Positions 3,658 to 25,619 of a stretch of 64,000 nt of DNA are shown piece by piece (position 1 is the stretch's first letter; the number at the start of each line of letters is the position of its first letter). This DNA comes from Patiria pectinifera (taxonomy: Eukaryota > Echinodermata > Asteroidea > Valvatida > Asterinidae). The notes beneath the pieces were generated by a model, which did no database searches, was not told the DNA's origin, and was given only the letters and a program-made list of their open reading frames with translations. The stretch lies in contig CM057147.1 of NCBI GenBank assembly GCA_029964075.1, positions 17,629,513-17,693,512 on the forward strand, written 5' to 3'. Made by a program: the position numbers and the translations under genes.

Positions 3658-4100
3658 GTCATGTGAGGGCGCCCTACCATGGCATCATTTGCCGCCCTAT
3701 ATGTATGCATGGGTCCGATTGGGTTGAAACTTTCTTTGCCCTCATATTGGGAAGTGCTATGTGTGAAAATGTAAGTGGCGTCATCATCCCTTCTGTGGTC
3801 GTCATATGAAGGCGCCCTAACCTTGCATACTGGAATGTGCTATGTGGAACATATAGGTTAAGTCGTGATTACGTCATCAGTTGTTTTGTGGGGCGCCCGA
3901 ACAGTGCATCATAAGTCGTGATTATGTCATCAGTTCTCTTGTGGGGGCACCCTAACAGTGCATCATGGCCCTCTATCTCTGCAAGTATGCGACCGATTGC
4001 GATGAAATTTTACATGCACTAATTGAAGTCATCTTCTCATGTCCTTGTCACATAAAAAAAAGCCGAAACAGCTTGTGTTTGCCCACAAACACATCTCTAG
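3658..4100 (+). mobile_element. Helitron-like 3' end with hairpin and CTAG
   Basis: The degenerate tandem block resumes here and ends with stem TGTGTTTG (4074-4081), loop CCCA, stem CAAACACA (4086-4093), three bases, then CTAG (4097-4100) followed by T. Stem-loop plus CTRR followed by T is the known layout of Helitron 3' ends. The sequence after it is T-rich, as after the other such ends in this window. Confidence 0.6.
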
Positions 4101-4204
4101 TTTCTTTTTCTTTTTTTCTTCCTTCTTTTTTCTTTTCTTTTTTTCTTTTCCGGGGGGGGGGCAAGTGCCCCCTTGCCCCCCCCCCCCCGCGACACCCATG
4201 CTTA
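4101..4204. repeat. T/C-rich tract and G/C homopolymer hairpin
   Basis: A pyrimidine-rich run of about 60 bases leads into a G run and a C run around GCAAGTGCCCCCTTGC (4152-4190). These can pair. This is probably the remnant of a G-run transposon end, like those at 27.6 and 30.4 kb. The glycine- or lysine-rich reading frames here are artefacts of base composition. Confidence 0.5.
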
Positions 4205-4434
4205 GCTCCCTGGGGAGTATACAGCTCGATGCTGCCATTTCGGCACAAAGCAGCTAAATCAACCACAACAACAATCTCTGCCCTGACAGGTACCCATTTA
4301 CTCCTGGGTGGAGAGAAGCAATGAGTTACAAAGTGCCTTACCCAAGGGCACACGCACCACAACCCCAGTCCGGGCTTCGAACCCACAACCTACAACCTGC
4401 AGAGTTACCCGCAGAACCACTAGGCCACAGCATT
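4205..4434 (-). mobile_element. tRNA-derived SINE
   Basis: Read on the minus strand, an A-box-like TGGCCTAGTGG is followed by the B-box GGTTCGAAGCC, then a conserved body containing CCCTTGGGTAAGGCACTTTG and CTCCACCCAGGAGTAAATGG. The same SINE sits at 42555-42802 upstream of the equivalent TANGO2 exon, so it inserted before the gene duplicated. A related copy lies at 38690-38880. Confidence 0.75.
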
Positions 4435-4469
4435 AACTGGTTTTAAAACTTCATTCCTTTGTTTTCCAG

Positions 4470-7347
4470 GTATACATACATTCTCAAACCACACAATCAA
4501 CACGTCATGGCCAAGGACAGATTATGTACGAACAGAACTCGAGAAAATCGTCCAAAAGGCACACAGCCTTTCCAAAGAAGAACTAACAGGAGAGTTAATG
4601 GAAATGATGGCACGCGATGCACCGTAAGTATACAATGTATATCTTTCTTGTTGACCCTAAAAAATGTTGTGCAAGTTGACGTCTTTAAATTTCTCAAAAA
4701 GTATCCAACATCAGCATTTCATGTTGGAGTGTATTGTTTGTACCCTTCTTTATAATCACAGCAAAAATTTGATAAAATCCATTCATGCAAACCAGAATTA
4801 CAACAGATCATAAATGGCAAAGTCTTTTTTATCCGTTCCAGTTTGATTTACCAGCCATATGGTTGTGAAGGCATAGCGTATATCGTTGATTTAAGCAAAG
4901 CTAATCCGATTACGTACGTAGACGCTGTAACAGAGCAGTGAAATTCATGCACCCCCCAAAAATGGCCTTTTGAACGTTGTGTTTCTTCAGAAAATATGCT
5001 CAGTATGACTGAAATGTTAAACTATAACAGAAGAAGAAATTCTAACTTCATGTCAGTGAAAAAAAATCGCCGTCATCGATGCCGAAACGTCAATACTAGT
5101 TACTGGTAAAGCTGACCTTCGAGTCTGGAAGAAATCGTTCGAAAATTTCCCCAAATCTATGTAATTATATCAATTTCTAGGGATTTCCTCAAGTTGTTGT
5201 TTCTCGAGTAGTTGAACACTTAAATGATCTAAGTATATTCCGAACTTCAGCTTTAATAATCTGTTGTTGCAAACGTCAGTGTTACACCTTGAACTACATG
5301 TATCTCCAAGGAAAATTTTGACGAGGATCGCCTGCCAACGTGAACATGTCTGTGTACATGTAGTTTCATTCAAAATAAAGTGTTACGTAACCTTTAGAAA
5401 TCACTATTAGCAACCACACAGCTGTTACACAGTTAATGAAAAGACCCATTGCAGAGTGCCGGTTGAGCGATTTCAATGCAATGTGTAATTCCCATTGGAA
5501 TGGTTGAAAAACACATCCTTTTATAATCTGTTACAGTTTTGGTTTTCATGAATGGGTTTCCATGACATTTTCACTGATTATACACAAGAGCATGATTAGT
5601 ATGCTCAAAATGAAATACTCGTGTTAGGTACTTTTTGAGAAATTAACGATATCTGCTTGCACAACTTTGTTTTCGGTCACCCTGTACATCATCATTTATT
5701 ATTAGTTTGTGTGCATTTCCGTTTGCATATTCAGTACTAGAATTATGTAGATGGATTTCTGTGTCATCAGCTTTTGTGTTTCATTCAGTCTGGGCATGGA
5801 GTGAGCAATGTGCTGCCACTACATTAGGTTTAACAGTTCAGATGCAATTAGTATGACGTTGTAAGTAGGCATGCAAGTTTTTGTCAGATCAGCTGATTTT
5901 TTGTTACTTCACGCTTATGCCTCTCACTGCTGGGCCCAGGTTCCATTCCCGGCTCGGGTCACATGTGGGTAGAGTTGTTTATTGATTCTCTCCTGTGCCA
6001 CGAGGGTTTTTCTCATGGGTCTCCGGTTTTCCTCCCTCCGCAAAAATCAACACTTTCGATCTCTGGCTGTGATCCGTGGTCAGACATGGGTCGTATGGCA
6101 GCTGCCTTTAAGCTTTACATGCCTTCGGCTCGACCACGTTGTAGCCGCGTCCTTTGCAATTCAGCTTCTGCTACGAGTAAGGACAAGTAGCATCCCCCTC
6201 CTGTTAAAAATTGACGAACACAGTGTAAAGTCTTATTATACTTGGAATTTTCTTTTTTGTTGTTATTTCCCAGTTGCATGCCTGCATGAAAAATGTATGC
6301 TGTATTAAAGATTTGTAATTGGGGTTTCAAATCTAGAGACTACATATATTTAGATATAACAGCAGCTACCTCTCTCAGATCTCAATACACCGTGTGCCCA
6401 TATGAGCGTTGCAGATGGACCAGGAATGTTCCATGTTTTTAGTGTCTTCCTAAAATACAAATCACTGTTGTGCAGTTACGGGTACTACAGAAACCGGGTA
6501 CCTTATTGAAGTAAAAAAACACGGGTACCCAGGTATCCGTAAAAGAAACCCAACCCCAAAGTTCAAATCCTGGAAGTTGTCTGAAGGTCTTTTCGGTCTT
6601 TAAAGGTAGCGTTACGGTTTAAACTGCAACTGTCAAGAGCGTCATCTGACGTGCCTTAAAATGCACACAGCCTGGTTTTCATTAAAAAAATTCCCCACAA
6701 ATGGCATTCAAAATCTTCCTTTTTCATTGTCTGAGAAGTTGCTAAGTAATTTGAAAAGTTTGCTATGGGTACCCTGATCCCGTAATCTGGAACCGGTTCC
6801 TGACATCAACAGTCGGGTACTCGGGTACCCGGCTCAGATGCACAGCCCTAATACAAATACATGTTTTTGGCTCGTCAGGCTTGTGTCCAGCGCAGACATT
6901 TCTGCAGAAGACATGGACATCTCTAAGTTCAAAGAAATGCTGAAGGAATTGGTGTTCATCAAGTCAAACACATGTGGAACAAGGTATGTACTCCTATTTA
7001 AAACAGACATTATTTATGCATTGCATTTGAAGTTTGTATGAGGGGGAAGGGGGCTGGATTACAGGGGGGTGTGCCCATTTTCTGTTACACATGTTAACTA
7101 TGGTTGCTGATAGGACTTACAAATGTTCAGTTGGGGGGAGACAACGGGGGGGGGGGACTGGGGGGGACAAATTGTTCTGAGTTTTTTTTATTCTTTCTTT
7201 CTTTTTTACATTTTTTTCAGGACCACAACTGTTATCCTTATTGATGCAGCAGGAAATGCTTCATTCACTGAAAGGACACTGAAAGAACCAATCGATCCTA
7301 CCCACCCGGAATGGGAACAGCGGAATCACACATTCTCCCTGCTTTAA
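4470..7347 (+). CDS. TANGO2-like paralogue, 3' exons only
   Basis: Three exons, 4470-4623, 6879-6983 and 7221-7347 (TAA at 7345-7347), match exons 5, 6 and 7 of the complete TANGO2 gene at 38284-46679 in length (154, 105, 127), phase and splice sites (CCAG/GTAAGT, CAG/GTATGT, TCAG). They encode the C-terminal ~128 residues, including [21 protein letters not shown] and VILIDAAGNASFTER. Exons 1-4 are not seen between base 1 and 4469. They may lie left of the window, or this may be a partial duplicate. About 17 of 128 residues differ from the other copy, many conservatively. By hand, 9 of 12 base differences in the first exon change the residue, which hints at relaxed constraint. All frames are open. 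Confidence 0.85.
5925..6190 (+). repeat. SINE-like dispersed repeat
   Basis: The block begins near GGTTCCATTCCCGGCTC, a B-box-like sequence. It continues through CTCTCCTGTGCC, CGGTTTTCCTCCCTCCGC and ATGGGTCGTATGGC. The equivalent copy is at 44282-44528, so it predates the duplication. There is no open frame of interest. Confidence 0.5.
6462..6849. mobile_element. Non-autonomous hAT-like element, GGGTACC subterminal motifs
   Basis: The 388-base insertion is flanked by the direct repeat AATACAAA (6454-6461 and 6850-6857; a ninth base T also matches). The paralogous intron has the uninterrupted site AAAATACAAATACATG near 45220, so this is a true insertion with its empty site. Both ends carry GGGTAC(C) words, for example CCGGGTACC near 6493 and GGGTACTCGGGTACCCGG near 6815. 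The right end GCACAGCCCT is the inverse of an AGGGCTGTGC-type hAT terminus. There is no transposase. Confidence 0.75.
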
Positions 7348-7489
7348 ACCCTTGCCGGCCCTTTCAAATCCAGCGGAAGGTCTAGCAGGATACTCGCGTG
7401 ATTGAGGAAGGTAGAGCCCAGCCACTTTAACTATGCATTGGGATTTTAACACACGTTGGCTCAGGGTAGCTTATATTAAGTTAACAACA

Positions 7490-7826
7490 AACACCCATTC
7501 CAAAATTTGTATCCTTGTGGAGACATTTCTTTGTTCCCGTGTAGTAAAGTGTTCAATTTTGAAAGTGAATTTTCAAAATGCTCTTATTTTAACCAGAATA
7601 AGTTTCCTGGGCTGAAATTTGGAATTAATATCCCTTTTCTAAAACTCTTCCATCTGCGACAAATAAACACACCTTGGAAATTCCTAGTTTTTGAGTAAAA
7701 CCCATATATCTATTTCGTGAAAACCTTGTGGAGACCTATTCATCTATAGAAATTGCCCTGTGGAGACCTTTACAATGTTTTGTTAACTATTGTGTGTGAG
7801 TCTCCACAAGGCAGCGAATTTGTGGT
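7490..7826. mobile_element. MITE with CCTTGTGGAGAC inverted ends
   Basis: CCTTGTGGAGAC (7513-7524) and its inverse GTCTCCACAAGG (7800-7811) bound the core. The second TANGO2 copy reads straight through at 46811-46835, so the insertion lies just 3' of the TANGO2-like stop codon, with outer limits near 7490 and 7826. A possible short CAC duplication marks the site. A second family member is at 53310-53600. Internal CTTGTGGAGACC words repeat near 7727 and 7758. Confidence 0.7.
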
Positions 7827-8097
7827 CACGTTTTCTTGTGAACAATTTATTTCATATAGATCTACCACTCCTTTTGACACGCAGTCCGTGGTGATGGCGC
7901 ATTTGGACAGCTAATCTTGCTGGGTCACTGAATCAGGCAAATTTGTCCCAAATTTTAAGACATTTATTTTAAATCAGCTAATTCCTTAGAGATGCAACCA
8001 TGCTGGCAGTTTCCATTTTTAACCGTAATGTACTTTTATGCAATTATTATTATTTTTTGGGAGGGGGGGGCATTTAAAAATTTTCGAAATGCCTTGC

Positions 8098-8358
8098 TTG
8101 ATTATTGGCTTTTTCGCAAAATTGCGAAAAAGCCTTTCTTTTTGTTCTGGTTTTTTTTGTGGCTTTTTCGCAAAATTTGCGAAAAAGCCTTTCTTTTTGT
8201 TCTCATTTTTTTTTTTGGCTTTTCCGCTTAAATGCGGAAAAGCCTTTGTTTCTGTACTTATTTTTTTTTTCTTTTTTATGGCTTTTCCGCAAAGTTGCGG
8301 AAAAGCCTTTGTTTCTCTACGAATTTTCTTTCTTTTTTTTTTTTTCTTTTTTTTCAAC
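8098..8358 (+). repeat. Four tandem GGCTTTTTCGC hairpin modules
   Basis: Four near-perfect hairpins with 11-12-base stems occur in a row near 8106-8135, 8161-8190, 8217-8246 and 8279-8308. The first two are GGCTTTTTCGC...GCGAAAAAGCC and the last two are GGCTTTTCCGC...GCGGAAAAGCC. They are separated by T-rich spacers ending TTTCTTTTTGTTCT or TTTGTTTCT. Single or paired copies occur at 19424-19452 (+), 23560-23583 (-) and 29495-29582 (-), always beside a T-rich tract and the phrase ATAGACTTTGT. Confidence 0.85.
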
Positions 8359-9997
8359 CAAAATGCCATAGACTTTGTGCACGTTTTTTCTAGCAAACAC
8401 TTTTGGCATAAAACAAAGTCATATGACATCAAAACTTAACATAGTCACAGAACATATAGCAAAGGTCGTTCGCGAAGATAGACGCAATGATGACGTCATC
8501 ATGGGTCATGTGACGTCATCGCAACGTTGCATATTTCAAAGCCGTATATCTACAGAACGGTATGTCCGATTGGCTTGAAACTCAGCATGTGGTTAGACCG
8601 GGAAGTGTTATAGATAAAATTTGAGATGACGTCATCATGACGTCATCGTGTGATTTTATATTTAATTTTGAATTTTTGAAGACTTTTGCCATATCTCACT
8701 AACGCAATATGATAAATTCGAAATTCTTTTTGTATTAGGTTCGCTGGGCAATAGATATATGCACAAAATTTGGAAAAATGCGTGACGTCATGATGACGTC
8801 AGCAAAAGTGCGATTTTTGAAACACATATAAGGGAATGTCCGATCGTCATGAAACTTGGTGGGTGGGTAGATAATAACACTAGTACACAAAATGTTGAAT
8901 GACGTCACGATGACGTCATCGGTCGATTTTTAAGGTTTTTTTTTAATATTGCTTATTTTATTCTGCTTACAAAGTTTAACATTTTTATTAATCCGATTGT
9001 TTTCAAACTTGGTACAGACTAAAACCACAATAAAATAATGAGCACTGCCAAGTATTGTTACGATGACGTCGTCATTAGACATGTGACATCATCGTTAACT
9101 TGTATATTTTAAGCCCCTATATCTCACGAACAGTACGTCAGATTGGGTTGAAACTTGGTATGGGGGTAGGCCGGGATGTGTTACAAATAAATATTGAGAT
9201 GACGTCATCATGACGTCATCATGTGATTTTATACAGATTTTTGAAGTTTTGGACCTTTAAGCCATATATCACGAACCCAATATATTAAATTTAAAATTCT
9301 TTTTGTATTAGGTTTGTTAGGCAATAGGTATATGTACAAAATTTTGAAAAATGTGTGACGTCATGATGACGTCATCAAACATGCGCTTTTTTGAAACACA
9401 TATATAAGATAATGTCAGATCGTCATGAAACTTGGTGGGTGGGTAGATAACACTAGTACACAACATCTTTAATGACGTCACGATGACGTCATCAGTATAT
9501 TTTTACGATTTTTTAATATTGCCAATTTTATTCTGCTTCGGAAATTTAACACTTTCATTAATCCGATTGTTTCAAACTTGGAACAGACTTAAACCACAAT
9601 AAAATAATGAGCACTGCCAAGTATTGTTAGAATGACGTCATCATTAGACATGTGACGTCATCGTTTGTATATTTTTAGCCTCTATATCTCATCAACAGTA
9701 ATTTAGATTGGGTTGAAACTTGGTATGGGGGCAGGCCGGGATGTGTTACAAATAAATATTGAGCTGACGTCATCATGACGTCATCTTGTGATTATATATA
9801 TGTATTTTATATATAAGACTTTTGCCGTATCTCACAAATGCAATATGCCAAAATCAAATTTCTCTTTGAATGAGGTTTGTTAGACAAAACATAAATGCAC
9901 ACAGTTTTGCACCAAACCAAAAACATGACCCCAATTTAAAAAAACACATATTGCGGAAAAGCCCTATGCTCTGTTGCAAACAGACATAGACCTCTAG
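8359..9997 (+). mobile_element. Helitron-like unit with TGACGTCA array
   Basis: The unit starts at AAAATGCCATAGACTTTGTG. It holds about three internal repeats of ~570 bases, with the landmark GATTGG(G/C)TTGAAACT at 8566, 9139 and 9706. Each repeat carries several pairs of the exact palindrome TGACGTCA. It ends with a hairpin TCTGTTGCAAACAGA (9969-9984), then CTAG at 9994-9997 followed by T. A second copy of the start phrase follows at 10035, so units are arranged head to tail. No Rep/helicase frame exists, so it would be non-autonomous. Confidence 0.6.
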
Positions 9998-11112
9998 TTT
10001 CTTTTTTTTTTTCCCTCTTGGGACTTCCAACCAAAATGCCATAGACTTTGTGCACGTTTTTTCTGATCGGCACTTTTTGCATAAAGCATACTCATATAAC
10101 ATTGAAACTTTACATAGTCAAAGAACATATAGCAAAGGTCTTTCCCGAAGATAGACGCAATGATGACGTCATCATGGGTCATGTGACGTCATCTTAAAGG
10201 TGCATACTTTAGGGCCCTATATCGCGAGAATGGTAAGTCCAGTTTGGTTCATACTTGGTATGTAGGTAGACCGGGATGTGTTATAGGTAAAAATTGGAGT
10301 GACGTCACGATGACGTCATCGTGTGATTTTATAAGAATTTTTGAAGTTTTGGACCCTCAAACCATATCTTATCAACGGAACATGGTAAATTCAAAATTCT
10401 TTTTGCAATGGGTTTGTTAGGTAATGCATACTTGGACCAAAAAAGTGAAAAGTGCATGACGTCATGATGACGTCATCAAAAATGTGATTTTTGTATTTCA
10501 CATATAAGGGTAAGTCTGATCGTCTTGAAACTTGGTGGATATGCAGATACAGTTACTAGTATGCGAAATCCGAAGTGACGTCATGATTACGTCATCGCTT
10601 GATTTGTTATAATTTTTTTAAACTTTGACATTTTCTTCTACTTGCAAAATTGTACATGAAATAGGATCATTATTAACTTTAAACTACGCACAGTACAAGG
10701 CCCTTCGGTAAAGTTGGTCTTAAACAAGTCACATCATAATGACGTCGTCATTAGTCATGTGACCTCATCTTACAAATTATAATTTAAACATTTTATACCT
10801 ATCGTTCTAGCAAGCCAATTGGGCTGAAACTTGGCAAATATACAGTTATGTGTATGTTATATTTAAAATAAAAAATACGTCATGTTAACGTCATCATTAT
10901 TTTTTTAATTGATTTTTAATGTATATTATTTTCAAAGTTTCATTACGTTTTTCAATTGACAAGTTCGGAATTATCTTGAATCCGATCAATTACAAACTTT
11001 GAAACAAATTTAAAAGAACCAACCTATAGCCAGATTTTCCAGAAATTTAAAGGAGACTTTTTAGTCTAAAAACGGACGAAGTCACGTAATTCCCGATTTT
11101 GGGCAATAATGC
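9998..11112 (+). mobile_element. Second Helitron-like unit, 3' truncated
   Basis: After a T-rich tract the phrase AAAATGCCATAGACTTTGTG recurs at 10035 and the sequence then follows 8400 onward. TGACGTCA pairs lie near 10165, 10300, 10457 and 10575. From about 10700 the repeat decays, and no CTAG end is seen before the inverted repeat at 11113. Confidence 0.55.
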
Positions 11113-11275
11113 GCACGTAGAGCAAGTATTCCTTTCGCCAACAGAGGGCAGCATATACATTTAATGGTTAGTTTTGTTTAGCATTTGGCAGCTATAAATG
11201 CAATGCAAGTTAAACATTAAATGTATCTGCTGCCCTCTATTGACGTAAATTATATACTCACTTGGCTGTACTGTA
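11113..11275. mobile_element. Inverted-repeat MITE
   Basis: Arms of about 28 bases, AGAGGGCAGCATATACATTT (from 11142) and the near-perfect inverse ending at 11242, flank a 45-base spacer. Weaker complementarity continues outward to roughly 11113 and 11275. Stretch 11276-11440 shows nothing recognisable. Confidence 0.6.
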
Positions 11276-11452
11276 CGCACTTGGCTATTGCCACTCAACC
11301 GTGTGTGCATGGCTATCGCCGTTGAAATGATTTGCCGCCCTGTATATTTTTCTGCTATAAAAGTTAACTACGCCAATGTTATTGATTGCAATGATCTATA
11401 GCCCTCTACCCGTCTATTTTATTTACTTTTTTATTAGTAGAAAATGTCGTTA

Positions 11453-12644
11453 TTAGGTGTTGGGCCTCAGCCCAAAACCTATTGTTATTGTAAGAATTTA
11501 CTATTATTAATGTTCTCCTCAGCATATTCTTCTCCAGAACTGTCTGTCAAAATGAAAACATATATGAACTTCAATTGTCAATACATGAATGCGCAACCAA
11601 CTGAAGATGTGCTTTTTTGCAATTACGTCATCATGACGTCATCATGGGTCACGTGACGTCACTTTAAAAAATAATGAATTTAATCTTTGAAATTCAATAT
11701 AAAATCAACCGTCAGAGACCGCAACTTGAATTTTGCGGGAATCGACATGATAACATATGATCTTCATTTTATCTTCTGCGCGTAAAATCACGTGACCCTT
11801 CCTTCCGGTCGAAACCGGAAGTGCCTAATAATTTGAAAGTGGAAAAAGATATGAACTTGCTTTCAACGGTGTTGATGTCTACCTGGATTGACCTTTCAAA
11901 AAAATAATTGGTGACGTCATGAAGAGTTGGAGCGCCCTCTGGCGGCAGGTTAAAAAACGCGAAAAACGCATTTTCACTTGATGTCTGTGGCGAAGTTTGC
12001 GGTAATCGCTTCAAAATTAATGTACATGATGACCATAATGCAGACAACACCTGTGCGCGAAAAAAATTGATTACGTCATCAGACCGGAAGTTACAATAAA
12101 AAGACCTTTAAACCTTTAAAAATTGCAAAAAAATCAACCGTGATAGATATAATCAAGATTTGGCTAACTATAGCACAGGTAAAATAGCTCTTGAACTTTC
12201 TGGTAATGACGTCTCAATGACGTCATCAAGTATCATATTACAAGCAATCAAAGATTTCTAGATTTAATCTTTGAAAATCAATATAAAATCAACTGCTACA
12301 GATTACATTTTGTTTTTTATAGCAATCGATACAATATTGCAGGGTCTTCATTTTTGGTATTAAGTGCAAAATCACTTGACCCTTCCTTCCGGTCGAAACC
12401 GGAAGTGCCTTATTATTTGAAATTGGCAGAAGATGCGAACTTGCTTTCAAAGATATGAGTGTCTGTCTAGGCAGTACTGTACAAAAAATTTACAGGTGAC
12501 GTCATCAAATGTTAGAGCGCCCTCTGGCGGCATGTTGAAAAATTCAAACATGGATTTAAACATGCATATTTTGAGATGATGTGTGTGGCAAAGTCTGCAG
12601 TAATCCATGGCCCAACACCATGTGGTTGTTCATACAACCTCTAG
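11453..12644 (+). mobile_element. Helitron-like repeat, family II
   Basis: The left end is the hairpin TAGGTGTTGGGCCTCAGCCC. The body has ACGTCATCATGACGTCATCA, CCTTCCTTCCGGTCG...AACCGGAAGTGCC and GCGCCCTCTGGCGG, and its second half is a diverged partial repeat of the first. The right end is CAACACCATGTGGTTG, a bulged hairpin, then CTAG at 12641-12644 followed by T. Other copies are at 17708-19339 (+), 21590-22311 (-) and a partial one at 12660-13090. The only open frames are short and overlap the repeat. Confidence 0.6.
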
Positions 12645-12659
12645 TGTATTTTTGTGTTT

Positions 12660-13090
12660 GTTGACTATTCTCCTTTGTAAAAATTTGCAAATTCTTCTCC
12701 GGAACTGTTTGTCAAAATGAAAACATATATGAACTTCAATCGTCAATAGATGAATGCACAAGCCACTGACGATGTGCTTTTTTGCAATTACGTCATCATG
12801 ACGTCATCATGGGTCACGTGACGTCACTTCAAAAAATAATACATTTAATCTTTGAAATTCAATATAAAATCAACCGTCAGAGACCGAAATTTGAATTTTG
12901 CGGGAATCTACATGATAATTCACGATCTTCAATTTATCTTGTGCGTGTAAAATCACATGACCCTTCCTTCTGGTCGAAACCGGAAGTGCCTAATAATTTG
13001 GAAGTGGAAAAAGATATGAACTTGTTTTTATCAATGTAAGTCTGTGGGTGGGTTGAACTTTTAAAAAAAAATGATCTTACCGCTAAAGAC
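12660..13090 (+). repeat. Partial family II repeat copy
   Basis: This segment repeats 11505-11920, including TCTCCGGAACTGTTTGTC, the GTCATCATGACGTCATC block and GAAACCGGAAGTGCC. It abuts the CTAG end of the previous unit, so family II units also sit head to tail. Bases 13091-13280 hold nothing recognisable. Confidence 0.65.
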
Positions 13091-13280
13091 CATATAAACG
13101 ACGTTGGAGTCAGAATAAATAAATGTAACAAAAAGAGGGCGCTCTTTCATCTCACCGACTTTTTTGGGGGAAAAAAACCCGATTATTTCCATAATGCATT
13201 GCCAAATATAGGCATTGCGAAACAGGAAATAACTTGCATTACTTTTGTGGACTTTTTTCGCTACACAATTTTCGCTTACT

Positions 13281-15290
13281 TTTAGTCATATTTGCGCACA
13301 TTTAGATTTTGAATGATGACAAATATAGTATAGGCCTACACGTTGCATCGTGGCTGTGTATAACAAACCAGGCAATTTCTGCACAAACCTATGGGACTGT
13401 GCACCAGTTGAAACTTTTATACGATTCCTCCTCATTGCATAACGAATTTGAGCGATCATGTTTTCTTCATGTTCGTACATTATTGCATGTGTATAACTTA
13501 ACACTAAACATAGTTGTTAGTGTTACGCCCCAACTTAATTGACCATGCTCCCAGCTTTGGCTGGGATCGTCCGAACCGTGTCAGTTCAGTTGAGACACTT
13601 TCGATAGGATGAAACATGCAAAACTATAGTTAGGCCAGCTTGACGCTCTATGATAGCTGACAAAATTCTCCACACATTTCACGAGGCAAATGCAAGGTTC
13701 TCAGTACTTCATCATTCAAGTTGAGGCCTCAATTCAATTTTTAAATGTAACTTTTCTTAAAAATTTTGCACCTGAAAAGCCAAATTGTTAGATTTGAATC
13801 CTAAGACTAGACTGGTACATGTCCAACTGTTTGAAGAGACTGACCCCATCAGTAGTCTGGGGGCATGCCTGATGGAGAAAATATGCCACAGAGATTAGGA
13901 ACTACATGTTTCTTTTGACACAGTTGATTGATGCAGTATTAAAACATGGCTGAAGGAAGCAGATGCTACGAATCTAGAACACATAAAGCAGATGATCCTT
14001 TTCTCTCGGAAAGTGTGCTTCATTTATTCAACCTTTTATTTTTCAAACTTGATGCAGTAATTAGTGTTACATTAGCTGCTGAATGGAAAACCTCACTTTT
14101 CGCGGTATTTTGCAATGCTCTTTATGTTGACGTAGGAATGTGACATTCATTGTACACACATGGAGTAAAAACTCACAATTTTATATCATAATCTGAGAAG
14201 TTCGTGTAGGCACACCAAATTTTTGTAGACGTTTCAGTTGAACACTAATTAGTCGCTATTATTAGCCCATTATGTAACCTTGTTTTGACTGCACTATATA
14301 ATGTGTTTTTCTCGGCTGTGTGTGCCAATGCACCTGTAAAAGCACGTGTACTACACAGATCAGAAACTCATGATTTTATTTCTTTAAAGGAAACTACCAT
14401 CTGCAAGACAATAATTACCATCATTTGTAGGATTTATTCTTTCATTTTCCTTTGAGTATCCGAATCTAAACTTGGAGTGATTTTCAAACAACGGTGTCTC
14501 ATCCCCTTCATGCATAATTCAGAAGCCACAATTAATTACTAAATCGCCTTCCCCTCTCCGATTTCTGGCTCCGCCCCGGCTGTAGCACATTGTAACTAAA
14601 AAGTAATTACCAGCGTCATTGCAATGTATCAAAATGTATTTTATTTTACAAAATGGCTTTCATGCAGTGAATGGAACAGACGCAGGTATCACAGTACTGT
14701 GTATACACACCGTACTTAAACATCCGCCATTGAACTCCATGTATTTACATGTACAATGTACATGTATTACCCTGCTACACACTCCTAGCCTCTTTGTAGC
14801 AGACACGTCGTTCACCAAATTTGTTGTTGCTTTGCTAAAATTCAACACTCAACACCAGCTTTAGGCGCATTATGTTTGTGCAGCAACCTATTGCAAGCTT
14901 GTGATGTTGATCTTTTCTTATGGTCATTTGCATAATAAGTGCGTTGGAATTTCATAAAGGTGCGTTATCAAAGCCTCAAATCCAAGGCCACAGGCAGAAC
15001 TCTAGTTCATAGCTATACAGCAGTGGCTTGCAAGGACCTGTTTAAACCCTGTGAACCAATATTTTGTGTTTTTCTTGATCAATTTCGTTACTTCCCTGTC
15101 ATAAAGTCTGAATCAAAGTCCGAGTATACCAAGTGCGAGTCTGTGTGCGCTATATCTGAGTCTCAGTCTGAGTAGGAGGTTGAGTTTTGATGGAGAGAAA
15201 AATATATATATAGATGTCATGTGATTTGGCTTGTATTATGAACTCATGTACAGACCCGAATGTTGTATCCTGATGTTATCTCAAAATCCA
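13281..15290. repeat. ~2 kb tandem duplication, copy 1
   Basis: This unit aligns with 15291-17706. Shared landmarks are AAACCAGGCAATTT (13364 and 15391), GACTAGACTGGTAC (13805 and 15850), CTGTAGCACATTGTAACT (14579 and 16898) and CAGACCCGAATGTTGTATCC (15251 and 17571). The offset grows from ~2.03 to ~2.32 kb, partly because copy 2 has a MITE insertion. No exon with splice signals and a long frame is visible. Confidence 0.75.
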
Positions 15291-17706
15291 TTAATTTACA
15301 TCGTGAGCCCAAGAGAAAATGTTGCAGGCTTTATTGATTAAATGTTCCATACAATTTGGGAAATCGGTTATATTTTGGTATGTCAATAGCAAACCAGGCA
15401 ATTTGTGCACAAACCTTTGGGACTGTGAACCAGTTAAAATGTTCATGTGATTCCTCCTCATTGCATAAAGAATTGATCGAGCGATCATCTTGTCTTCATG
15501 TTCGTAGATTATTGCATGTGTATAAATAGCCGTTAATGTTACGCCCAAACTTGACCATGCATGCTCCCAACATTGTCTGGGACCGTCCAAACCATGTGTT
15601 CGAGTCCAGTTGAGACACATTTTGGGCCCATATGGCCGTGAGTGCCGAAAACATAAAAAACTAAAGTTAGCCCAGCTTGACTCACTCTTAATAGCTGACA
15701 AAATTCTCCAATCATTTCACGAGACAAATGCAAGCTAGGTCCTCAGTGTTTCACCATTCAACTTTGAGGTCTCAATTTAATGTATTAAATGACACTTTTC
15801 TTCAAAAGTTTGCACCTGAAAAGCAAAATGATTAGATTTGAAACCTAAGACTAGACTGGTACACGTCCTACTGTTTGAAGAGACTGACTCCATCAGTGGT
15901 CTGGTGGCATGACTGATGGAGAAAATGTGCCACAGAGATTAGGAACTACACGTTCATGTTTATTTTGACACAGTTTATTGATGCCATATTAAAACCTGTC
16001 CGAAGTAAGAAGAATTGACAAATCTAGAACACATACGGCAAAAGACGATCTTTTATTTTCTCTCGGAAAGTATGCTTCATTTATTCAACCGTATTTTTCA
16101 AGTTCAACATCAGAACACAATACTTTTTCCATGCCAGATTAAAACTCACAACGGTAGCCACAGCTTTATAAACAATTATTGTGTTGTCGATGCAGTAATT
16201 AGTGCTACCATAGAAAGAATTCCATACAAGGCCACCACAAATCTGGTGAAGACACACTATTTTAGGAGTGCAAACATTCTTTAATAATACTATAACCTTT
16301 TCTCTCATGGCCCATAGACTTTGTGCAGGAGGTCTGAGTGCCGGCCTTGTATGGAATTCTTTCCGCTACCATAAGCTGCTGAATGGAAATCCTCACTTTT
16401 CGCACTATTTTGCAACACATTTAGAGATATTGACATGGGAATGTGACATTCAGTGTACACACACATGGAGTCAAAACTCACAAGTTTAATGCATAATCTA
16501 AGAGATCATTCGTCTAGGCACACCACATTTTAGTAGAGGTTTCAGTCGAACACTAATTAGTTGCTATTATTAGCCCATTATATAACCTTGTTTTCACTGC
16601 ACTATATAATTTGTTATTTTTGGAGGCGGGACCACTGCCTCTTTAAAAGAGCGTGTACGTAGGTCGAAAACTCATGATTGTATTATTACCTTAAAAGAAA
16701 CAACCATCTGCAAGAAAATAATAACCATCATTTGTAGGATTTATTCTTTCCTTTTCCTTTGAGTATCTCAATCTAAACTTGGAGTGATTTTCACACAACG
16801 GTGTCTGTCCCCTTGATGCACTCTTTCAAATAATTCAGACGCCACAATTAATGACTAAAACGTCTGCCCCCATCCGATTTGTGGCTCCGCCCCTGCTGTA
16901 GCACATTGTAACTAAAAAGTAATTAACAGCGTCATTGCAATGTATCAAAATGTATTTTATTTTACAAAATGGCGTCCATGCAGTGAATGGAACGGTATCA
17001 CAGGTTCTGTGTATACCACCGTACTTAAACATCCGTCATTGAACTCCATGTATTTACATGTTTAACCCTGCTACCCACTCCTAGTGCCTTTGTTGCATAC
17101 ACGTCGTTCGCCAAACTTGTATTTTGCTTTGCTAAAATACAATATTCAACACCGGCTATAGGCGCATGCTTGTGCAGCAACCTATGGCAAGCTTGTGACG
17201 TGGATCTTTTCTTAAGGCAATTTGCATAATAACTGCGTTTGTATTCCATAAACGTGCTTTATCAAAGCTCCAAACCGATCAAGGCCACAGGCAGAGTTCT
17301 AGTTCATAGCTATACAGCAGGTGGCTTGCAAGGATCCCATTTAAACTGTATGAACCAATATTTCCTTCTGTTTTCTTGATTAATTAAAATCAACTTCGTT
17401 GAGTCCCAGTTCTAATGTCTTTGTCGAAGTCCAAGTATACCAAGGACGAGTCTGTGTGTCCTATATCCGAGTCTCAATCTAAGTAGGAGGTTGAATTTTG
17501 ATTGAGAAAAAAAAGTATGTTGATGTGATGTGATTTGCCATGCGCATGCCGGTATCGAGACCTCATATACAGACCCGAATGTTGTATCCAGAATCCATCA
17601 TCTCAGACTCCATTGACTGATATCGTGAGCCCCATGGAAAATGTTGGAGCCATGTTTATCGAGAAATTGCTCCATTTAGTGGGAAATCTGTTGTTTTTTG
17701 GTTTTG
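15291..17706. repeat. ~2 kb tandem duplication, copy 2
   Basis: This is the second tandem copy of 13281-15290, carrying the 152-base MITE at 16213-16364. It is cut at 17707 by the left hairpin end of a family II element. A third, partial copy is at 34250-35050. Confidence 0.75.
16213..16364. mobile_element. MITE with 9-bp target duplication
   Basis: The ends are GAAAGAATTCCATACAAGG... and its inverse. They are flanked by an exact 9-bp direct repeat GCTACCATA (16204-16212 and 16365-16373). The tandem copy has the empty site at about 14058-14075. A 9-bp duplication is typical of Mutator-like elements. The phrase CATAGACTTTGTGCA near 16314 resembles a phrase at the start of the Helitron-like units. 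Confidence 0.85.
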
Positions 17707-17707
17707 T

Positions 17708-19339
17708 AGGTGTTGGGCCTTGAGCCCCACACCTATTGTTATTGTACGAATTTACTATTTTTGTTTTCCTCAGCAAATTCTCAGCAAATTCTTCTCCAGA
17801 ACTGTTTGTCAAAATGAAAACATATATGCACTTCAATTGTCAATATATGAATGCACAACCCATATAAATGTGCTTTTATGCAATAACGTCATCAGGACGT
17901 CATCATGGGTCAGGTGACGTCACTTCAAAAAATAATAAATTTAATCTTTGAAATTCAATATAAAATCAACCGTGAGAGACCGGAACTTGAATTTTTCGGG
18001 AATCGACATGGTAATATATGCTCTTCATTTTATCTTGTGCGCGTCAAATCACGTGACCCTTCCTTCCGGTCGGAACCGGAAGTGCCTAATAATTTGAAAG
18101 TGGAAAAAGATGTGAACTTGCTTTCAACGATGTTAGTCTGTGGGTGGGTTGACCTTTCAAAATATATGATCGGTGACGCCATGAAGTTTTCGAGCGCCCT
18201 CTAGCGGCAGTTTAAAAACGTAAGAAACGCATTTTCACCTGATGTCTGTGGCGAAGTTTGCGGTAATCGCTTCAAAATTAATGTACATGATGACCTTAAT
18301 GCAGACAAGACCTGTGCGTGAAAAAAATTGATTACGTCATCGGATCCAAAGTTACAATAAAAAGACCTTGAAACCTTCAAAAATTGCTAAAAAATCAACT
18401 GTGATAGATATTATCAAGATTTGGCTATATATAGCACAGTTTAAATAGCTCTTGAACTTTCACGTCACAATGACGTGATCAAGTAACATATTACAAGCAA
18501 TCAAAGATTTCTAGATTTAATCTTTGAAAATCAATATAAAATCAACTGCTACAGTTTTTATGGCAATCGATACAATATTGCAGGGTCTTCATTTTTTGGT
18601 ATTAAGTGGAAAATCACTTGACCCTTCCTTCCGGTCGAAACCGAAAGTGCCTTATTATTTGAAATTGGCAGAAGATGTGAACTTGCTTTCAACGATGTGA
18701 GTGTCTGCCTAGCCCCTAGGCAGTATAAAAAAAAAGTGACGTCATCAAATGTTAGAGCGCCCTCTGGCGGCATGTTGAAAAAGTCAAACATGGATTTAAA
18801 CATGAGTTGATGTGTGTGGCATGACATGAACACTCCTCCGAGTAAGACCAACCCGACCAACTATGTAGGCTTCTCGGGTAGGGACACATCATTTGGGGGA
18901 GCCTGCCCTAGGGGATTAAGATACTTATAAGCACTTATTCTATAATTGGTTCCTAAAAGGAGCGAAGGTCACTCTGCCTGAGAGATTTCAAGCATTATAT
19001 TTGGTTGCTAAATTTAATCTGTCGGCCAACAAATTGCATTATCATATTGACGTACCTGAACTTGTTTTATATGTTGAAACTTGAAAATCCGTGAATAAAT
19101 GGCTGAGAACGATCTGTTACTGTTAATTGCTAGCATAAAACCGCGATTCACCAGAAAGTATAGTTCCAGAAATCAGTGTGGCTAACAGGTGGTATTTCAT
19201 TTAACCACAAGTCATTATCTCGCTGGGACTGTGGAGCAGAGAGGGGAGTTTGGTTTACTTAAGGGCTCCCCAGGGGCTTTCAACAGTGTCCTCCATGGTT
19301 GCGGTAATCCATGGCCCAACACCGTGTGACAACCTCTAG
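17708..19339 (+). mobile_element. Helitron-like repeat, family II, with internal insert
   Basis: The left hairpin is TAGGTGTTGGGCCTTGAGCC. The body matches 11453-12640 to about 18810. Unrelated sequence (about 18830-19290) then intervenes before the family end CCATGGCCCAACACCGTGTG and CTAG at 19336-19339 followed by T. The insert shows no gene. Confidence 0.55.
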
Positions 19340-19620
19340 TTTTCGTTAAGATTTTTTTTAGCTGTTTCGGTGACACACTGAAACAGCTCTTGTTTTCGTT
19401 AAGATTTTTTTCTTCTTTTTTTTGGCTTTTTTGCAATTTTGCGAAAAAGCCATTCTTTCTGTTCTCATTTTTTTTTTTTCGTCTTCATCTTCTTTCTTCT
19501 TTTGTCGCCGAAACCCCATAGACTTTGTGCAAGTTTTTTCTGGCCTCCACTTTTGGCATTAATCTTTGTCATACATCATTCTAAGTTTGCAGATGTGTCC
19601 CGAAGATTGACGTCATGGTG
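19340..19620 (+). repeat. Hairpin modules after a CTAG end
   Basis: Directly after the CTAG end comes TTTTCGTTAAG, then the hairpin AGCTGTTTC...GAAACAGCT (19361-19389). TTTTCGTTAAG recurs, followed by the GGCTTTTTTGC...GCGAAAAAGCC hairpin (19424-19452), and then CCCATAGACTTTGTGCAAG. The order T-rich tract, hairpin, ATAGACTTTGTGC matches 8098-8380. Confidence 0.7.
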
Positions 19621-19697
19621 ACATCATCGACTAATTTATTATAGATTTTTGAATATTTAATTTTTCCTATAGACTTTGAACACAGAAATTAAGAAAA

Positions 19698-20448
19698 CTA
19701 GAGCTGACTGTTTGCAAACAGAACACAGGGCTTTTTCGCATTTTACAAATATTTATGTTTCGTTGGTCCTTTTGCAATCACTTTTCAGAGTGCATCATGC
19801 AGGTAAAGGTTGTTCAAAATGCTTAGAATAATTCCTAAAATATAATTTTATCACATGACGTCACATGGCCTTCAATGACGTCATCTTTGAAACCCTTCTC
19901 AATGCACATCTTGTCATTGTGGCCTTGATTTGAACCAAGTTTAATGTCAATCCGATGAAAAAAGTGTACAATTTTTTGAAGCAGAATAAAATTATAAATA
20001 TTTAAAAAATCATAAAAAAATGATGACTTCATCGTGACGTCACTTTGGATTTTGCATACTAGTACGATTATCTACCTACCCACCAAGTTTCATGACAATC
20101 GAACCTTTTCTGATATGTGTTTTGAAAAATCCCATTTTGATGACGTCATGATGACGTCACACATTTTTCAAAATTTTGTGCTAATACCTACATTGTATTA
20201 CCTAACAGACCAAATACAAAAAGAATTTTGAATTTTGCATGTTGCGTTCGTGAGATATGGCTAAAAGGTAAAAAAATTCAAATATTCATATAAAATCTCA
20301 GGATGACGTCATCATAACGTCACCTCATTTTTTACCTACAACACATCCCGGTCTAGCCACATACCAAGTTTCAAGCTAATCGGACTTACAGTTCTGTAGA
20401 TATAGGTTTTCAAAATATGCACGTTAATTGTCAAAAATCAATAAAAAA
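19698..20448 (-). mobile_element. Helitron-like unit, minus strand
   Basis: On the minus strand the unit ends with the perfect palindrome CTGTTTGCAAACAG (19708-19721) and then CTAG (19698-19701) before T. The body to the right carries inverted copies of the TGACGTCA units, such as CCACCAAGTTTCATGA and ACATCCCGGTCTAGCC. It stops where another minus-strand end begins at 20449. Confidence 0.6.
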
Positions 20449-20504
20449 CTAGAGTTTGAGGACAAACACACGGTGTTGGGCTAGAGGTTTGGCTTTTTCA
20501 CATT
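20449..20504 (-). mobile_element. Helitron-like 3' end, minus strand
   Basis: Read on the minus strand, the hairpin CAACAC-CGT-GTGTTTG is followed by TCCTCAAACT, then CTAG (20449-20452) before T. This is the family II end in inverted orientation. The rest of the unit is replaced by a simple repeat. Confidence 0.5.
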
Positions 20505-21003
20505 GTTGATTGTTGTTGATTGTTTTGTTGATTGTTAGTGTTGATTGTTGATGTTGATTGTTGGTTGTTTATGTTTATGTTGATTGTTGATTGTTGATTG
20601 ATGATGTTGATGTTGATTGTCAATTGAATTTGACGGGGGTTGTTCATGTCGATTGTTGATTGTTGATAATTGATTTGTGTTGTTGATTAACAATTATTGA
20701 TGTTGATTGTTGATGATTGTTGATGATGGTTGTCGATGTTGATTTTGATTTTTTGTTGTTGATTGTTGATTGTTGATGTTGATTGGTGATGTTGATTGTT
20801 GATTGTTGATGTTGATGTTAATGTTAATGTTGATTGTTGATTGTTGCTGTTGATTGTTGCTGTTGATTGTTGATGTTGATTGTTGATTGTTGATGTTGTT
20901 TGTTGATGTTAATGTTGATTGTTGATTGTTGATGTTGCTGTTGATTGTTGATGTTGATTGTTGATGTTGATTGTTGATTGTTGATGTTGAGGGTTGAGGG
21001 TTG
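20505..21003. repeat. GTTGAT-type simple repeat array
   Basis: About 500 bases consist of TTGATTGTTGATG-like words with a 3-base backbone (TTG/GAT) and irregular higher-order order, ending in GAGGGTTGAGGG. Strand asymmetry is strong, with G and T far above C. Confidence 0.9.
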
Positions 21004-21589
21004 AAAAGTAGCGTGTGGAGTAGTTATAAAGAGGATAGTTAAAAAGAGTCAGGTGAGGATCTGCACGCGCGTATGCTGCTGTACTGTAAACTTATCTAGT
21101 ACAATTGTTACAGAAACCCATGAAATAGCTCATATCTCTAAAAGTAAAGGTCGCACACCATTGGTGCAATACAAGATATTGCTCGCCATATCCTCTTTAC
21201 CCCAATGCGCATGTTTTTAGAAAAAAACACCCAATTTAAAAAGTGCCCAATTGGGCGCTTTTGCCAGCCCAATTTTTGAGTATCATAAGAGGGGAAGTTC
21301 CCTTTTACGCAATCGCAGCACATTGTTTTTCAGGATTTTCCCTTTGTAAGCAATTATCCCCATTTGCTGTACACACAATGTATGTGGCATTAAATGAGCG
21401 TTTCAATGCGTAGGCGTGTTCAACTTCAAACTTCAAGGGGGCTGCAGGGCATCTTCTAGTAAATTTATTGTAACGAAACCTTGGGAAGTTTGAGACCTAT
21501 TATTAAAGTGCCATTTAAAGCACAAAACTGGATTATATCTCTGACAGTTGATTTTTTAGCAATTTTCAAAGGAAAATTGGTCTTTTCAT
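21004..21589. other. No gene recognised
   Basis: This AT-rich stretch has no splice-flanked frame. The inverted words CCCAATTTAAAAAGTGCCC and TTGGGCGCTTTTGCC near 21230 are short. It appears to be spacer. Confidence 0.5.
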
Positions 21590-22311
21590 TGTAACTTCCG
21601 GTCTGATGACGTAATCATTTTTTTTTTCGCGCACAGGTCTTGTCTGCATTAAGGTCATTTTGTATATTCATTTTGAAGCAATTACCGCAAATTTCGCCAC
21701 AGACATCAACTGAAAATGCGTTTTGGATATTTTTAACCTGCCGCTAGAGGGCGCTCGAACGTTTGATGGTGTCACTGATCATTTTTTTGGAAAGATTAAC
21801 CCTAACTCCCTAGGGCATGTGCAAAATCGTATTGAATTTGGAGGATTCAGGACTGTTAGGGTTAACCCACCCACAGGCTAACATCGTTAAAAGCAAGTTC
21901 ATATCTTTTTCCACTTTTGAATTATTAGGCACTTCCGGTTTCGACCAGAAGGAAGGGTCATGTGATTTTACGCACACAAGATTAATTGAAGAACATGTAT
22001 TATCATGTCGATTCCCGCAGAATTCAAGTTCCGGTCTCTCACGGTTGATTTTATATTGAATTTCAAAGATTAAATGTATTATTTTTTGAATTGACATCAC
22101 GTGACCCATGATGACGTCATAATGACGTAATTGCAAAAAAGCACATCTTCAGTGGGTTGTGCATTCATGTATTGACAATTGAAGTTCATATGTGTTTTCA
22201 TTTTGACAAACGGTTCTGGAAACGAATGTGTCGTGGAGAAATAAAAAAAAAATTAAAAAAATAGTAAATTCTTACAATAACAATAGGTGTTGGGCTCAGG
22301 CCTAACACCTA
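21590..22311 (-). mobile_element. Family II repeat, minus strand, truncated
   Basis: This is the inverse of 11453-12100. It contains CGGTCTGATGACGTAATCA, GGCACTTCCGGTTTCGACC and the terminal hairpin AGGTGTTGGGC...GCCTAACACCT at 22286-22311. A short insertion around 21800-21855 breaks the homology. Confidence 0.6.
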
Positions 22312-22679
22312 ATTAGGTGATGATGTCATCATGACCGTCAATGACGTCATAGTCTTGGCATAATTTGTGTATGAGGGTCTTCCTTGGCTGTAACTTTGAT
22401 GACGATTCCAGATCGCCAAGTTGCACAAATGGTGGCTTGAAAACGTGTACAAAGTCAATGGGCTAAAAATCCCACTGCAGAAAAACTGCACCTTTAAATA
22501 CGTGATTTGCCTTTAAACTGAAACATTTTTATAAAATATTACTTGATATTCTGACTCTTGGGAATATTTTCAATCAAATGAAAGAGAATAAAAAATAAGA
22601 TTTGTTTTTCCTTCTCGGCCGAAGTTCAGAACTACTCAGTAAGATATATCAGTGTTGTATAGGAAAAGACTGTTGCAGA
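22312..22679. other. Repeat-like spacer
   Basis: A TGATGTCATCATGACCGTC block at the left is followed by AT-rich DNA with no recognisable gene. Confidence 0.4.
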
Positions 22680-23590
22680 AAGCTGTGTACAAAGTCTTAT
22701 TATAACTTCCTGTCTGATGACGTCATACGCCTAAAACTTCGCACACGTCTTAAGGGGGTCAAGGTCATCATATACGCCAATATTTAGGCGATTCCGACAA
22801 ACTTGGCCACAGACATCTATTCAAAATACATTTTTGAAAATTTTCAACCTGTCGCTAGAGGGCGCTCGAAGATTGCATGACGTCATCGGTAGATGATTTG
22901 AAGAATACTATCATCCAAGAGACGAACACCGTTGAAAGCAAGTTCATATCTATTACAATTTTTAAATGATAAGCCACTTCCGGTTTTGGCCTTTTTCGAC
23001 CGGAAGCAAGGGTCACATGATTGCACGCACACTGAATGAAATAAAGACCTCAACCTACTCTACCACTTGACGGCAACAGAATGCTGCGGACGCGTACGGT
23101 TGATTTCTTATGCATTTTTAAATATTAACAGTGTCACAATTTAATTGCCTATAAATAAACACCGGATGAGGTCATCATGACGTCATCATTACACAATGTT
23201 GTTTGAATTAGGGTCTTTGCTTGGACAAAGAGTGGTGTAAATGAATTACTGGCAAAGAGTCGAAATGCCCTTTGAAAATCGACAATTTTTTCTTAAATTT
23301 CTGTGTACAAATTCTGTGGGAAAAATTAAATATTCAAAATTCTATAATGAATCGCGTGATGACGTCAGCATGACGTAATGAATCGGCACACATCTGCAGG
23401 TGAAGTATGTGCCAGGTTTGAAGGGAATCGGAATTGTTTTAAGGCCAAAGGTGGCGTGTAGAAAAAACGTGTACAAAGTCTATTGGATTTTGTGCAAAAA
23501 AGAAGTGGAAGAAGAAGAGAAAGAGGAAGAAAGAAAAAAATCAGAACAAAAAGAAAGGCTTTTTCGCAAAATTGCGAAAAAGCCAAAAAA
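22680..23590 (-). mobile_element. TGACGTCA repeat block, duplicated at 28690-29590
   Basis: The block carries ACTTCCTGTCTGATGACGTC, CTAAAACTTCGCACACGTCT, CGCTAGAGGGCGCTCGAAGA and CAATTTAATTGCCTAT. It ends with the GGCTTTTTCGC...GCGAAAAAGCC hairpin (23560-23583). The copy at 28690-29590 is very similar and in the same orientation. It looks like the start of a minus-strand Helitron-like unit directly abutting the 3' end of the next at 23592. Confidence 0.65.
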
Positions 23591-23591
23591 A

Positions 23592-24540
23592 CTAGAGATC
23601 TATGTCTGTTTGAAAACAGAACACAGGGCTTTCCCGCTTATTACTTTTGTATGACTTCATGCTTTTAGCCAATATATATGCATTCATTTTATTTTTTTTG
23701 TTTGTTCAAAGTTCATAAAGCGTGCGGCCCATGATGACCTGATTATACGAGTGTAGTCAGTGCCCAATATTAAGAGTGATCTAGTGCCGTGTGAAGTTGA
23801 TCTGAGTTAAGACGATGTCAAATTGTGTAAGATGAAGGAAATATAAAAAAGTGAAACAAATAATAAAACATGAATTGATGACGTAATTGTGACACCATTT
23901 TATTGGGAGTTGCATAGTTAAAATATTATCTACCTTCATCGTGTTTTTAATGAAGATGGGACCTTCCTAAAAATGTGTGTTTTAAAAATTCGATTCTCAT
24001 TTGTGCAAATGTCTGACCTGACTAACCCTTTACAGCGAGAATTTTGAATTTAGCGTGTTGATTCCGTTTGTGGTAATGACCTTTAAAATGTCACAAATCC
24101 ATGTAGAATTTGATGATGGCGTCATCATGACTTTCTTTGTGTTAATTACAATAAATTATGTTACGGTCACACGATATATTGACTTCCATATAGAAGTTGG
24201 TGTCACAACGAACAGAAATCTTATCGATAGTGTTTGTGAATTTGGACTAAAGGTATTACTACGCATTTGCGGTCACAAGAATCAGGGAGAAGATCTCAAA
24301 ATAAATACATTTTTTGGTGATTGATTTGGACAATTTTGAAAAAAAAACACAATTAATTGAAATTGTTTTTCATTTGAAGGTAAACGTATTACGCTATATA
24401 TTTTTTTGGGGGGGGGCTGTCTGAAGTTGAGTTTAGACTAGGGTGTTCAAAACTAATTGTTTTGAAAGAAAGCAATATTTAAGGGGTGAAGAAGGAAGGG
24501 CATATATTTTTGTACAAGTTAGTGTTGAAAAAGATAAGCA
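23592..24540 (-). mobile_element. Helitron-like unit, minus strand
   Basis: On the minus strand it ends with the hairpin CTGTTTTCAAACAG, then CATAGATCT and CTAG (23592-23595) before T. The body to the right is a strongly decayed version of the array, with few intact TGACGTCA palindromes. The right limit is uncertain. The open frame at 24055-24324 lies in this decayed repeat and is not convincing as an exon. Confidence 0.45.
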
Positions 24541-24563
24541 TGTATTTATTTTTATTTTTTTAG

Positions 24564-25570: not shown

Positions 25571-25619
25571 AGCATTATGCATGCTGGTAGAGATGGGCTG
25601 AATCTAAAGTAAGTTAATA

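Follow-up and report, generated by a model that had tools for sequence, protein, structure and literature searches.

A 64,000-nucleotide stretch of the genome of the sea star Patiria pectinifera (assembly GCA_029964075.1, contig CM057147.1, positions 17,629,513 to 17,693,512 of the forward strand; hereafter the window) contains seven sites at which a stem-loop is followed by CTAG and T. These sites very probably represent the 3' ends of HINEs, non-autonomous rolling-circle transposons of the Helentron type (Helitron2 group), which form several related families and have repeatedly self-inserted. They are placed with the Helitron2/Helentron elements and HINEs on account of asymmetric terminal inverted repeats and of a Rep-helicase-endonuclease frame encoded in the same genome. 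The apparent tandem arrays, described in a first-pass annotation as Helitron-like units in both orientations, are largely nested insertions, with copies placed in the T-tract beside a resident 5' hairpin.

Seven CTAG ends and their terminal inverted repeats

All seven annotated ends were located, the last G of CTAG falling at 4100, 9997, 12644 and 19339 on the plus strand and at 19698, 20449 and 23592 on the minus strand; the plus-strand positions given in the annotation were about 3 bases too low. Both window strands together hold 61 CTAGT sites but eight of CTCTAGT, seven of which are the described ends; the eighth begins at 15000. An exact stem of at least 6 was found at 10 of the 61 CTAGT sites, including four reported ends, and at 498 of 7257 sites when all permutations of the pentamer were considered, two other permutations exceeding CTAGT in stem frequency. 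The scan required a gap of at least 2 before CTAG and was thus blind to the stems at 12644 and 20449. A hairpin followed by CTAG was discarded as sole criterion, being too weak. When the folds upstream of the 61 CTAGT sites were ranked by stability, six of the seven ends were within the 13 most stable; the exception, 19339, is the end whose stem had already been described as weak. The 12 bases 3' of CTAG include 6-11 T at the ends, against a mean of 4.2 at the other CTAGT sites.

A stronger signal than the stem-loop, absent from the first-pass annotation, is the inverse of the palindromic 5' motif, which sits 13-31 nt 5' of CTAG in three families, named A, B and C. The elements therefore carry asymmetric terminal inverted repeats, the 5' one within the terminal hairpin, and the 3' stem-loop (weak at 19339) lies between the 3' repeat and the terminus. 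The positions of these repeats are as follows.

Family A, 5' hairpins: 8107, 8161, 8217, 8280 and 19424 (plus strand); 23584, 29520 and 29582 (minus strand)
Family A, 3' repeats: 9953, 19729 and 23627
Family B, 5' hairpins: 11456 and 17709; 22313 (minus strand)
Family B, 3' repeats: 12609, 19313 and 20473
Family C: 5' hairpin 19360; 3' repeat 4063

The family A hairpin reads GGCTTTT(T/C)CGC, and its two ends covary, TTCGC hairpins corresponding to a GCGAA 3' end and TCCGC hairpins to GCGGA. An automatic test based on exact 10-mers, with simple-repeat arms excluded, detected the complementarity at 4 of 61 CTAGT sites, compared with 35 of 7217 sites of the other permutations (Fisher p = 3e-4). 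Before this exclusion the counts were 7 of 61, two of them TGACGTCA arms, and 224 of 7217, and the test was swamped by TGACGTCA and TTATAAGAATC arms. The remaining three ends were matched to 5' hairpins by eye: 4100 pairs with the family C hairpin 19360, which belongs to another unit, 23592 finds its match with one to two mismatches, and the partner of 20449 is the hairpin ending at 22313. While the two family C ends of the window lie in different units, both occur together at two loci retrieved from the genome, L050 and L057. A fourth hairpin family, D (AGCTGTTCCC), is present in loci L025, L051 and L063. The CAACAC...GTGTTG sequences, annotated earlier as a hairpin class, proved to be for the most part the terminal repeat of family B; its partner, a 5' end, lies more than 1 kb away.

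Searches of other kinds were negative: no match was found in Rfam at the gathering threshold, nor in IMG/VR for the exact family A end, and a scan for CTCTAGTNTNT with one mismatch allowed gave no signal (16 matches against 12.6 expected, a number reached by 21 of 100 shuffles).

The elements and element parts recognized in the window are listed below.

3658..4100, plus strand: 3' part of a family C element, with 3' repeat CCGAAACAGCT at 4063-4073, hairpin and CTAG end at 4100
8105..8310, plus strand: four stacked family A 5' hairpins (8107, 8161, 8217, 8280), T-tracts between them
8280..9997, plus strand: innermost family A (TCCGC) element, with 3' repeat GCGGAAAAGCC at 9953 and CTAG end at 9997
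9998..10834, plus strand: headless body, interpreted as the continuation of the outer family A element, which picks up in its T-tract right after CTAG
11456..12644, plus strand: family B element, with hairpin 11456, 3' repeat GGCCCAACAC at 12609, hairpin and CTAG end at 12644
12645..13076, plus strand: headless family B body, directly after CTAG
17709..19339, plus strand: family B element with a weak 3' stem, hairpin 17709 and 3' repeat 19313
19340..19423, plus strand: family C-like 5'-region tail, then the complete C hairpin 19360 and a T-tract
19424..19697, plus strand: family A 5' part, cut at 19697 by an antisense insertion
19698..23591, minus strand: family A element, with hairpin 23584, 3' repeat GCGAAAAAGCC at 19729 and CTAG end at 19698
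20449..22313, minus strand: family B element nested in the preceding one, with an ATTGTTG-type microsatellite at 20502-20990
23592..29582, minus strand: next family A element, putatively a single unit, with 3' repeat 23627 and CTAG end 23592 directly before hairpin 23584

In the stack at 8105..8310 the first two hairpins are of the TTCGC and the last two of the TCCGC type. The element at 8280..9997 includes about 2.5 internal repeats of roughly 570 bp each, and no Rep-helicase (RepHel) coding was found in it. The body that follows is supported by self-BLAST, and its first part, 9998-10120, aligns locally to 8329 onwards. The left side of the stack is delimited by a diverged duplicate of a gene-bearing host segment (4201-8038 versus 42554-47036; 89% over the longest piece): homology, in a short alignment, ends within few bases of the outermost hairpin 8107, thus marking that 5' junction. 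The corresponding right-hand flank was not found in window positions 1-42000. Further to the left, the limit 3658 of the family C part is a provisional boundary taken over from the earlier annotation, and the 5' end of the element ending at 4100 was not found within the window.

The family A part at 19424..19697 was aligned to uninterrupted copies near 23288 and 29277, also by self-BLAST; its continuation was not found in the window. The flanks of the nested family B element at 20449..22313, once joined, align to uninterrupted family A bodies, the left part weakly. The element at 23592..29582 carries two stacked 5' hairpins, 29582 and 29520.

Genome copies, nesting and a likely coding partner

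Copies of the family A and family C ends were searched in the 613.5-Mb assembly to which the window belongs. Candidates were scored best first (40 of 353 for family A, 40 of 886 for family C) and, for each family, 20 of the 39 scored matches remaining after exclusion of the window's own were retrieved. Judged by eye from their flanks, 19 of 20 copies stop at CTAG in each family; the rows dropped are L029 (family A), without CTAG at the query end, and L048 (family C), without CTCTAG where expected. The base following CTAG is T in 17 of 19 family A and 18 of 19 family C copies. Flanking sequences beyond CTAG are varied, mostly T- or pyrimidine-rich, and shared by few pairs only (L013/L022, L015/L027).

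Loci L050 and L057 contain complete nested pairs, at which four junctions each could be read in the order flank, T-tract, outer hairpin, T-tract, inner hairpin, inner element, CTAG, T-tract, outer body, outer CTAG, flank. The outer junctions are T-rich and no duplication is seen beyond T at these two loci, the ones at which target duplication was examined; T-tract targets could mask a duplicated T. The flanks of the window and genome ends are likewise T-rich in most cases. Stops exactly at CTAG, absence of a target duplication and A|T host junctions had been proposed as a test in the first-pass annotation; in place of A|T junctions, junctions within T-tracts were found.

Among element ends less than 150 bp apart, counted over 18 family C loci, 20 family A loci and a plus-strand pass of the window, 29 pairs are 5'-5', 13 are 3'-5' and none is 3'-3'. 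The stacked units are 49-89 bp apart, except for one pair at 137 bp, and are joined by T-tracts. Sixteen of the 29 close 5'-5' pairs are C-C, and seven combine different families. Hairpin 29520 is 98% identical to 19424 and 87% identical to its neighbour 29582. The mixed pairs and this resemblance imply that local duplication is not the whole story. Stacking on the left is accompanied by bodies lacking a hairpin after CTAG; the window has such bodies at 9998 and 12645, and 23 of 37 genome ends are followed by one. Numbers of hairpins and ends are balanced at L050, L057 and in one L061 stack. The head-to-tail arrangement originally described holds at 19339/19360 and 23592/23584, but many of the junctions are better read as nested insertions, each nest probably corresponding to one insertion.

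An automatic count showed that 27 of 37 genome ends (19 A, 18 C; L029, L048 and L031 excluded) adjoin the 5' region of another element, 23 as headless bodies and 4 as hairpins. Inspection of the other ten by eye shows a hairpin at L019 and sequence resembling element bodies at L010, L053 and L067. Control T-tracts, defined by 10 T in 12 and hence more strictly than the unfiltered flanks of the ends, lie beside an element 5' region in 14 of 113 cases over the whole window (14 of 52 in 1-30000, 0 of 58 in 30001-62000). The copies were chosen as those most similar to two window ends, one of which is itself nested, and so do not form a random sample; survivorship and the copying of composites could both contribute to the excess. 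It is only tentatively suggested that the T-tract between 5' hairpin and body is a landing pad favoured beyond plain T-richness. Under such an own-family targeting rule the machinery would recognise its own 5' hairpin, each insertion would renew the pad, and arrays would grow inwards. A literature search of open-licence papers found none on self-targeting to a hairpin-adjacent T-tract.

A RepHel protein, which the first-pass annotation had not found and recommended looking for, is encoded elsewhere in the genome, where 148 matches to the Helitron Rep domain were detected (150 of 162 candidates scored). As a separate observation, 86 of the 148 are strongly concentrated on one contig, C7, which accounts for 44.85 of the 613.5 Mb. 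One frame, 3155 codons long and read in two pieces (1543 and 1611 codons), combines PHD, a Herpes_teg_N-like stretch, OTU, DUF6570, Rep, Pif1 helicase and Exo_endo_phos; OTU, Rep, Pif1 helicase and endonuclease together are the Helentron set. Rep, a Pif1-type helicase and an endonuclease are thus joined in a single protein in this one frame, outside the window. It lies 14.6 kb upstream of a family C end, on the opposite strand, and three family C 3' ends (29022752, 29025839 and 29026881 of contig C20), also on the opposite strand, are on the side of its N-terminus.

Rep matches were also mapped around the 80 scored ends (40 A and 40 C, the window's own two included). Within 20 kb, opposite-strand Rep matches are upstream at 9 ends (10 matches) and downstream at 3 (4 matches), one of the latter ends also having upstream matches, and no Rep match is on the same strand. 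The antisense matches lie 8.5-14.6 kb upstream of family A and C ends. In addition, a stretch of 43 residues in the family A copy L010, antisense and 3.9 kb upstream of its CTAG, matches the N-terminal half of the 3155-codon-frame protein (58% identity, E 9e-7). Within the window no RepHel was found in the 29 frames scanned with Pfam (of 112 frames of at least 80 codons), and tblastn of the same protein gave no match. The protein probably moves these copies, a link drawn from few loci; confidence in the overall assignment is high.

Competing explanations and known relatives

Placement in the Helitron superfamily, as originally proposed, is supported by copies stopping at CTAG, by the lack of duplication beyond T and by the RepHel encoded in the genome; the canonical layout is not. 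A canonical Helitron1 starts with TC, ends with a hairpin and CTRR and is inserted between A and T, and tandem arrays of such elements, published for Helitrons, could arise by read-through rolling-circle replication. The CTAG followed by T and the 3' hairpin agree with this explanation, which is nevertheless extremely improbable: in place of TC, the 5' termini show palindromic hairpins set in T-rich sequence, all three families have asymmetric terminal repeats, and the flanks are T-tracts. Moreover, read-through predicts complete units after CTAG, whereas the hairpin is lacking at 23 of 37 genome ends and in the window bodies.

Local tandem duplication, or slippage between T-tracts, would account for stacked 5' hairpins without any nested insertion, and draws support from the short spacing, from joints prone to slippage, from the prevalence of C-C pairs and from L060 and L064, where hairpins outnumber 3' ends (the stretches end at 9 kb). 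It appears quite unlikely as the general cause, given the pairs of different families and the closer similarity of 29520 to the distant 19424; headless bodies after CTAG, in turn, require an outer hairpin on the left, and L050, L057 and one stack of L061 balance. A somewhat better, still minor, chance is given to the explanation that most nested copies derive from a few composites copied whole, so that the landing preference is overstated. Shared outer families and near-identical insertion points, as in L013/L022 and L015/L027, point in this direction, and chimeric elements with several 5' termini have been proposed in print. On the other hand, the 26 flanks with body motifs group, at 85%, into 7 outer clusters, and in two of these both A and C occur as inner element; window end 9997 (A) and L054 (C) are located in tracts of the same outer body; and at least eight inner/outer combinations were counted by eye, which argues against a single composite.

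Several observations weigh against the Helentron-type, self-inserting interpretation. Where nested copies agree in outer family and in insertion point, as some do, they may derive from a single composite. CTAG is followed by a base other than T in 2 of 19 family A and 1 of 19 family C copies, and the headless family B body at 12645 has no visible outer hairpin to the left of 11456. In L050-L067 hairpins and ends are unequal in number (45 versus 55), and mixed stacks such as those of L051 and L063 depart from a strict mirror order. As to the protein, among the retrieved loci outside the 3155-codon frame only L010 matches it, and no element was read whole, from 5' hairpin via RepHel to CTAG; no hairpin was apparent by eye in 1.2 kb read past the stretch that follows one RepHel frame, and 2.7 kb between L067 and L069 lie outside the sequence read. 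Finally, the elements end in CTAG, a feature reported for the proto-Helentron and counted as Helitron-like rather than Helentron-like (PMC4067079). Strict mirror order of hairpins and ends, considered as a general rule, was abandoned as a poor fit to mixed stacks.

The comparisons with known systems draw on excerpts of the cited papers. Asymmetric terminal inverted repeats define both Helitron2 (PMC3627910) and the Helentrons with their HINEs (PMC4067079). Helentrons and HINEs, which are DINE-1-like, share with the sea-star elements palindromic subterminal inverted repeats, a 3' stem-loop, T-rich insertion without duplication, central repeats or microsatellites and a Rep-helicase-endonuclease partner, for which OTU is shown in a figure legend; a RepHel frame antisense to the ends, as observed here, is described there for one Drosophila element (PMC4067079). 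In Helitron2 the 5' repeat is contained in the 5'-end hairpin and the 3' repeat precedes the 3' hairpin, at some 20-30 bp from that end; insertion occurs beside TTTT, and some elements have an oppositely oriented RepHel; the frame found here differs by an additional endonuclease domain (PMC3627910).

FoHeli of Fusarium oxysporum also has asymmetric terminal repeats and several 5' termini with one 3' terminus, for which self-insertion was proposed as the cause, but its ends and targets are different, and in the excerpt one nested element is named and a number have several 5' termini, while nesting is common in the sea-star copies examined (PMC5148889). The lepidopteran Hel-2 (BmHel-2) shares the CTAG 3' end, subterminal inverted repeats and 3' hairpin, and is distinguished by its TC start and A/T flanks (PMC4344730). 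Cg_HINE of the Pacific oyster has a 5' repeat with a complementary copy, a 3' repeat followed by a palindrome and T-rich targets without duplication; it differs in carrying satellite-like arrays, and its main text contains neither 'nested' nor 'CTAG' (PMC7492417).

Remaining window features and a proposed mechanism

Some further sequences were noted within or between the elements. About 470 bp (18822-19290) of the family B element at 17709..19339 are missing from the copy at 11456 and may be captured or inserted sequence. At 20449-20501, upstream of the family B end 20449, a family A-type repeat GTGAAAAAGCC is followed by a second CTCTAG, perhaps a remnant 3' end. A tandem duplication of about 2 kb (13360-15379 and 15386-17702; 79-80% identity) separates two family B copies. 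Elsewhere, a MITE-like repeat with inverted ends CCTTGTGGAGAC is found at 7503-7813 and 53305-53601 and is absent from the paralogous site near 46825, and a repeat of about 80 bp between A/T tracts (29612-29694 and 56184-56260; 90% identical) has no Rfam match at the gathering threshold. Arrays of palindromic TTATAAGAATC repeats occupy 929-1320 and 3512-3644, and a satellite-like array with a period of about 196 bp extends from 62173 to the window end at 64000. The exons of the duplicated host segment are reminiscent of TANGO2, although neither of the two frames submitted there matched a Pfam entry.

The structure of the elements suggests how such arrays may form. A unit begins in a T-tract with a palindromic hairpin and continues with a body carrying internal repeats; at its close the outer hairpin arm recurs in inverse form, followed by a short stem-loop and by CTAG, to which a T is usually adjacent. 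The Rep-helicase-endonuclease provided by autonomous copies elsewhere most likely nicks and mobilises one strand; the 3' repeat would pair with the 5' hairpin and so mark the end, an idea published for Helitron2. New copies would enter T-tracts, often the one between the 5' hairpin and the body of another element. Repeated self-insertion would then leave stacked 5' hairpins on the left and, on the right, bodies each closed by its own CTAG.

Both the element type and self-insertion with multiple 5' termini were already known; what is unusual is the frequency with which the elements examined lie within one another's 5' regions. An ambiguous 'Helitron-like' label is replaced by a Helentron/HINE system whose likely autonomous partner resides in the same genome. 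What looks like a tandem array can consist of nested insertions, and annotation may mistake headless bodies and stacked 5' ends for broken elements. Should the landing preference prove to be a targeting rule, it would help to explain the clustering of these elements and would spare genes from insertions.

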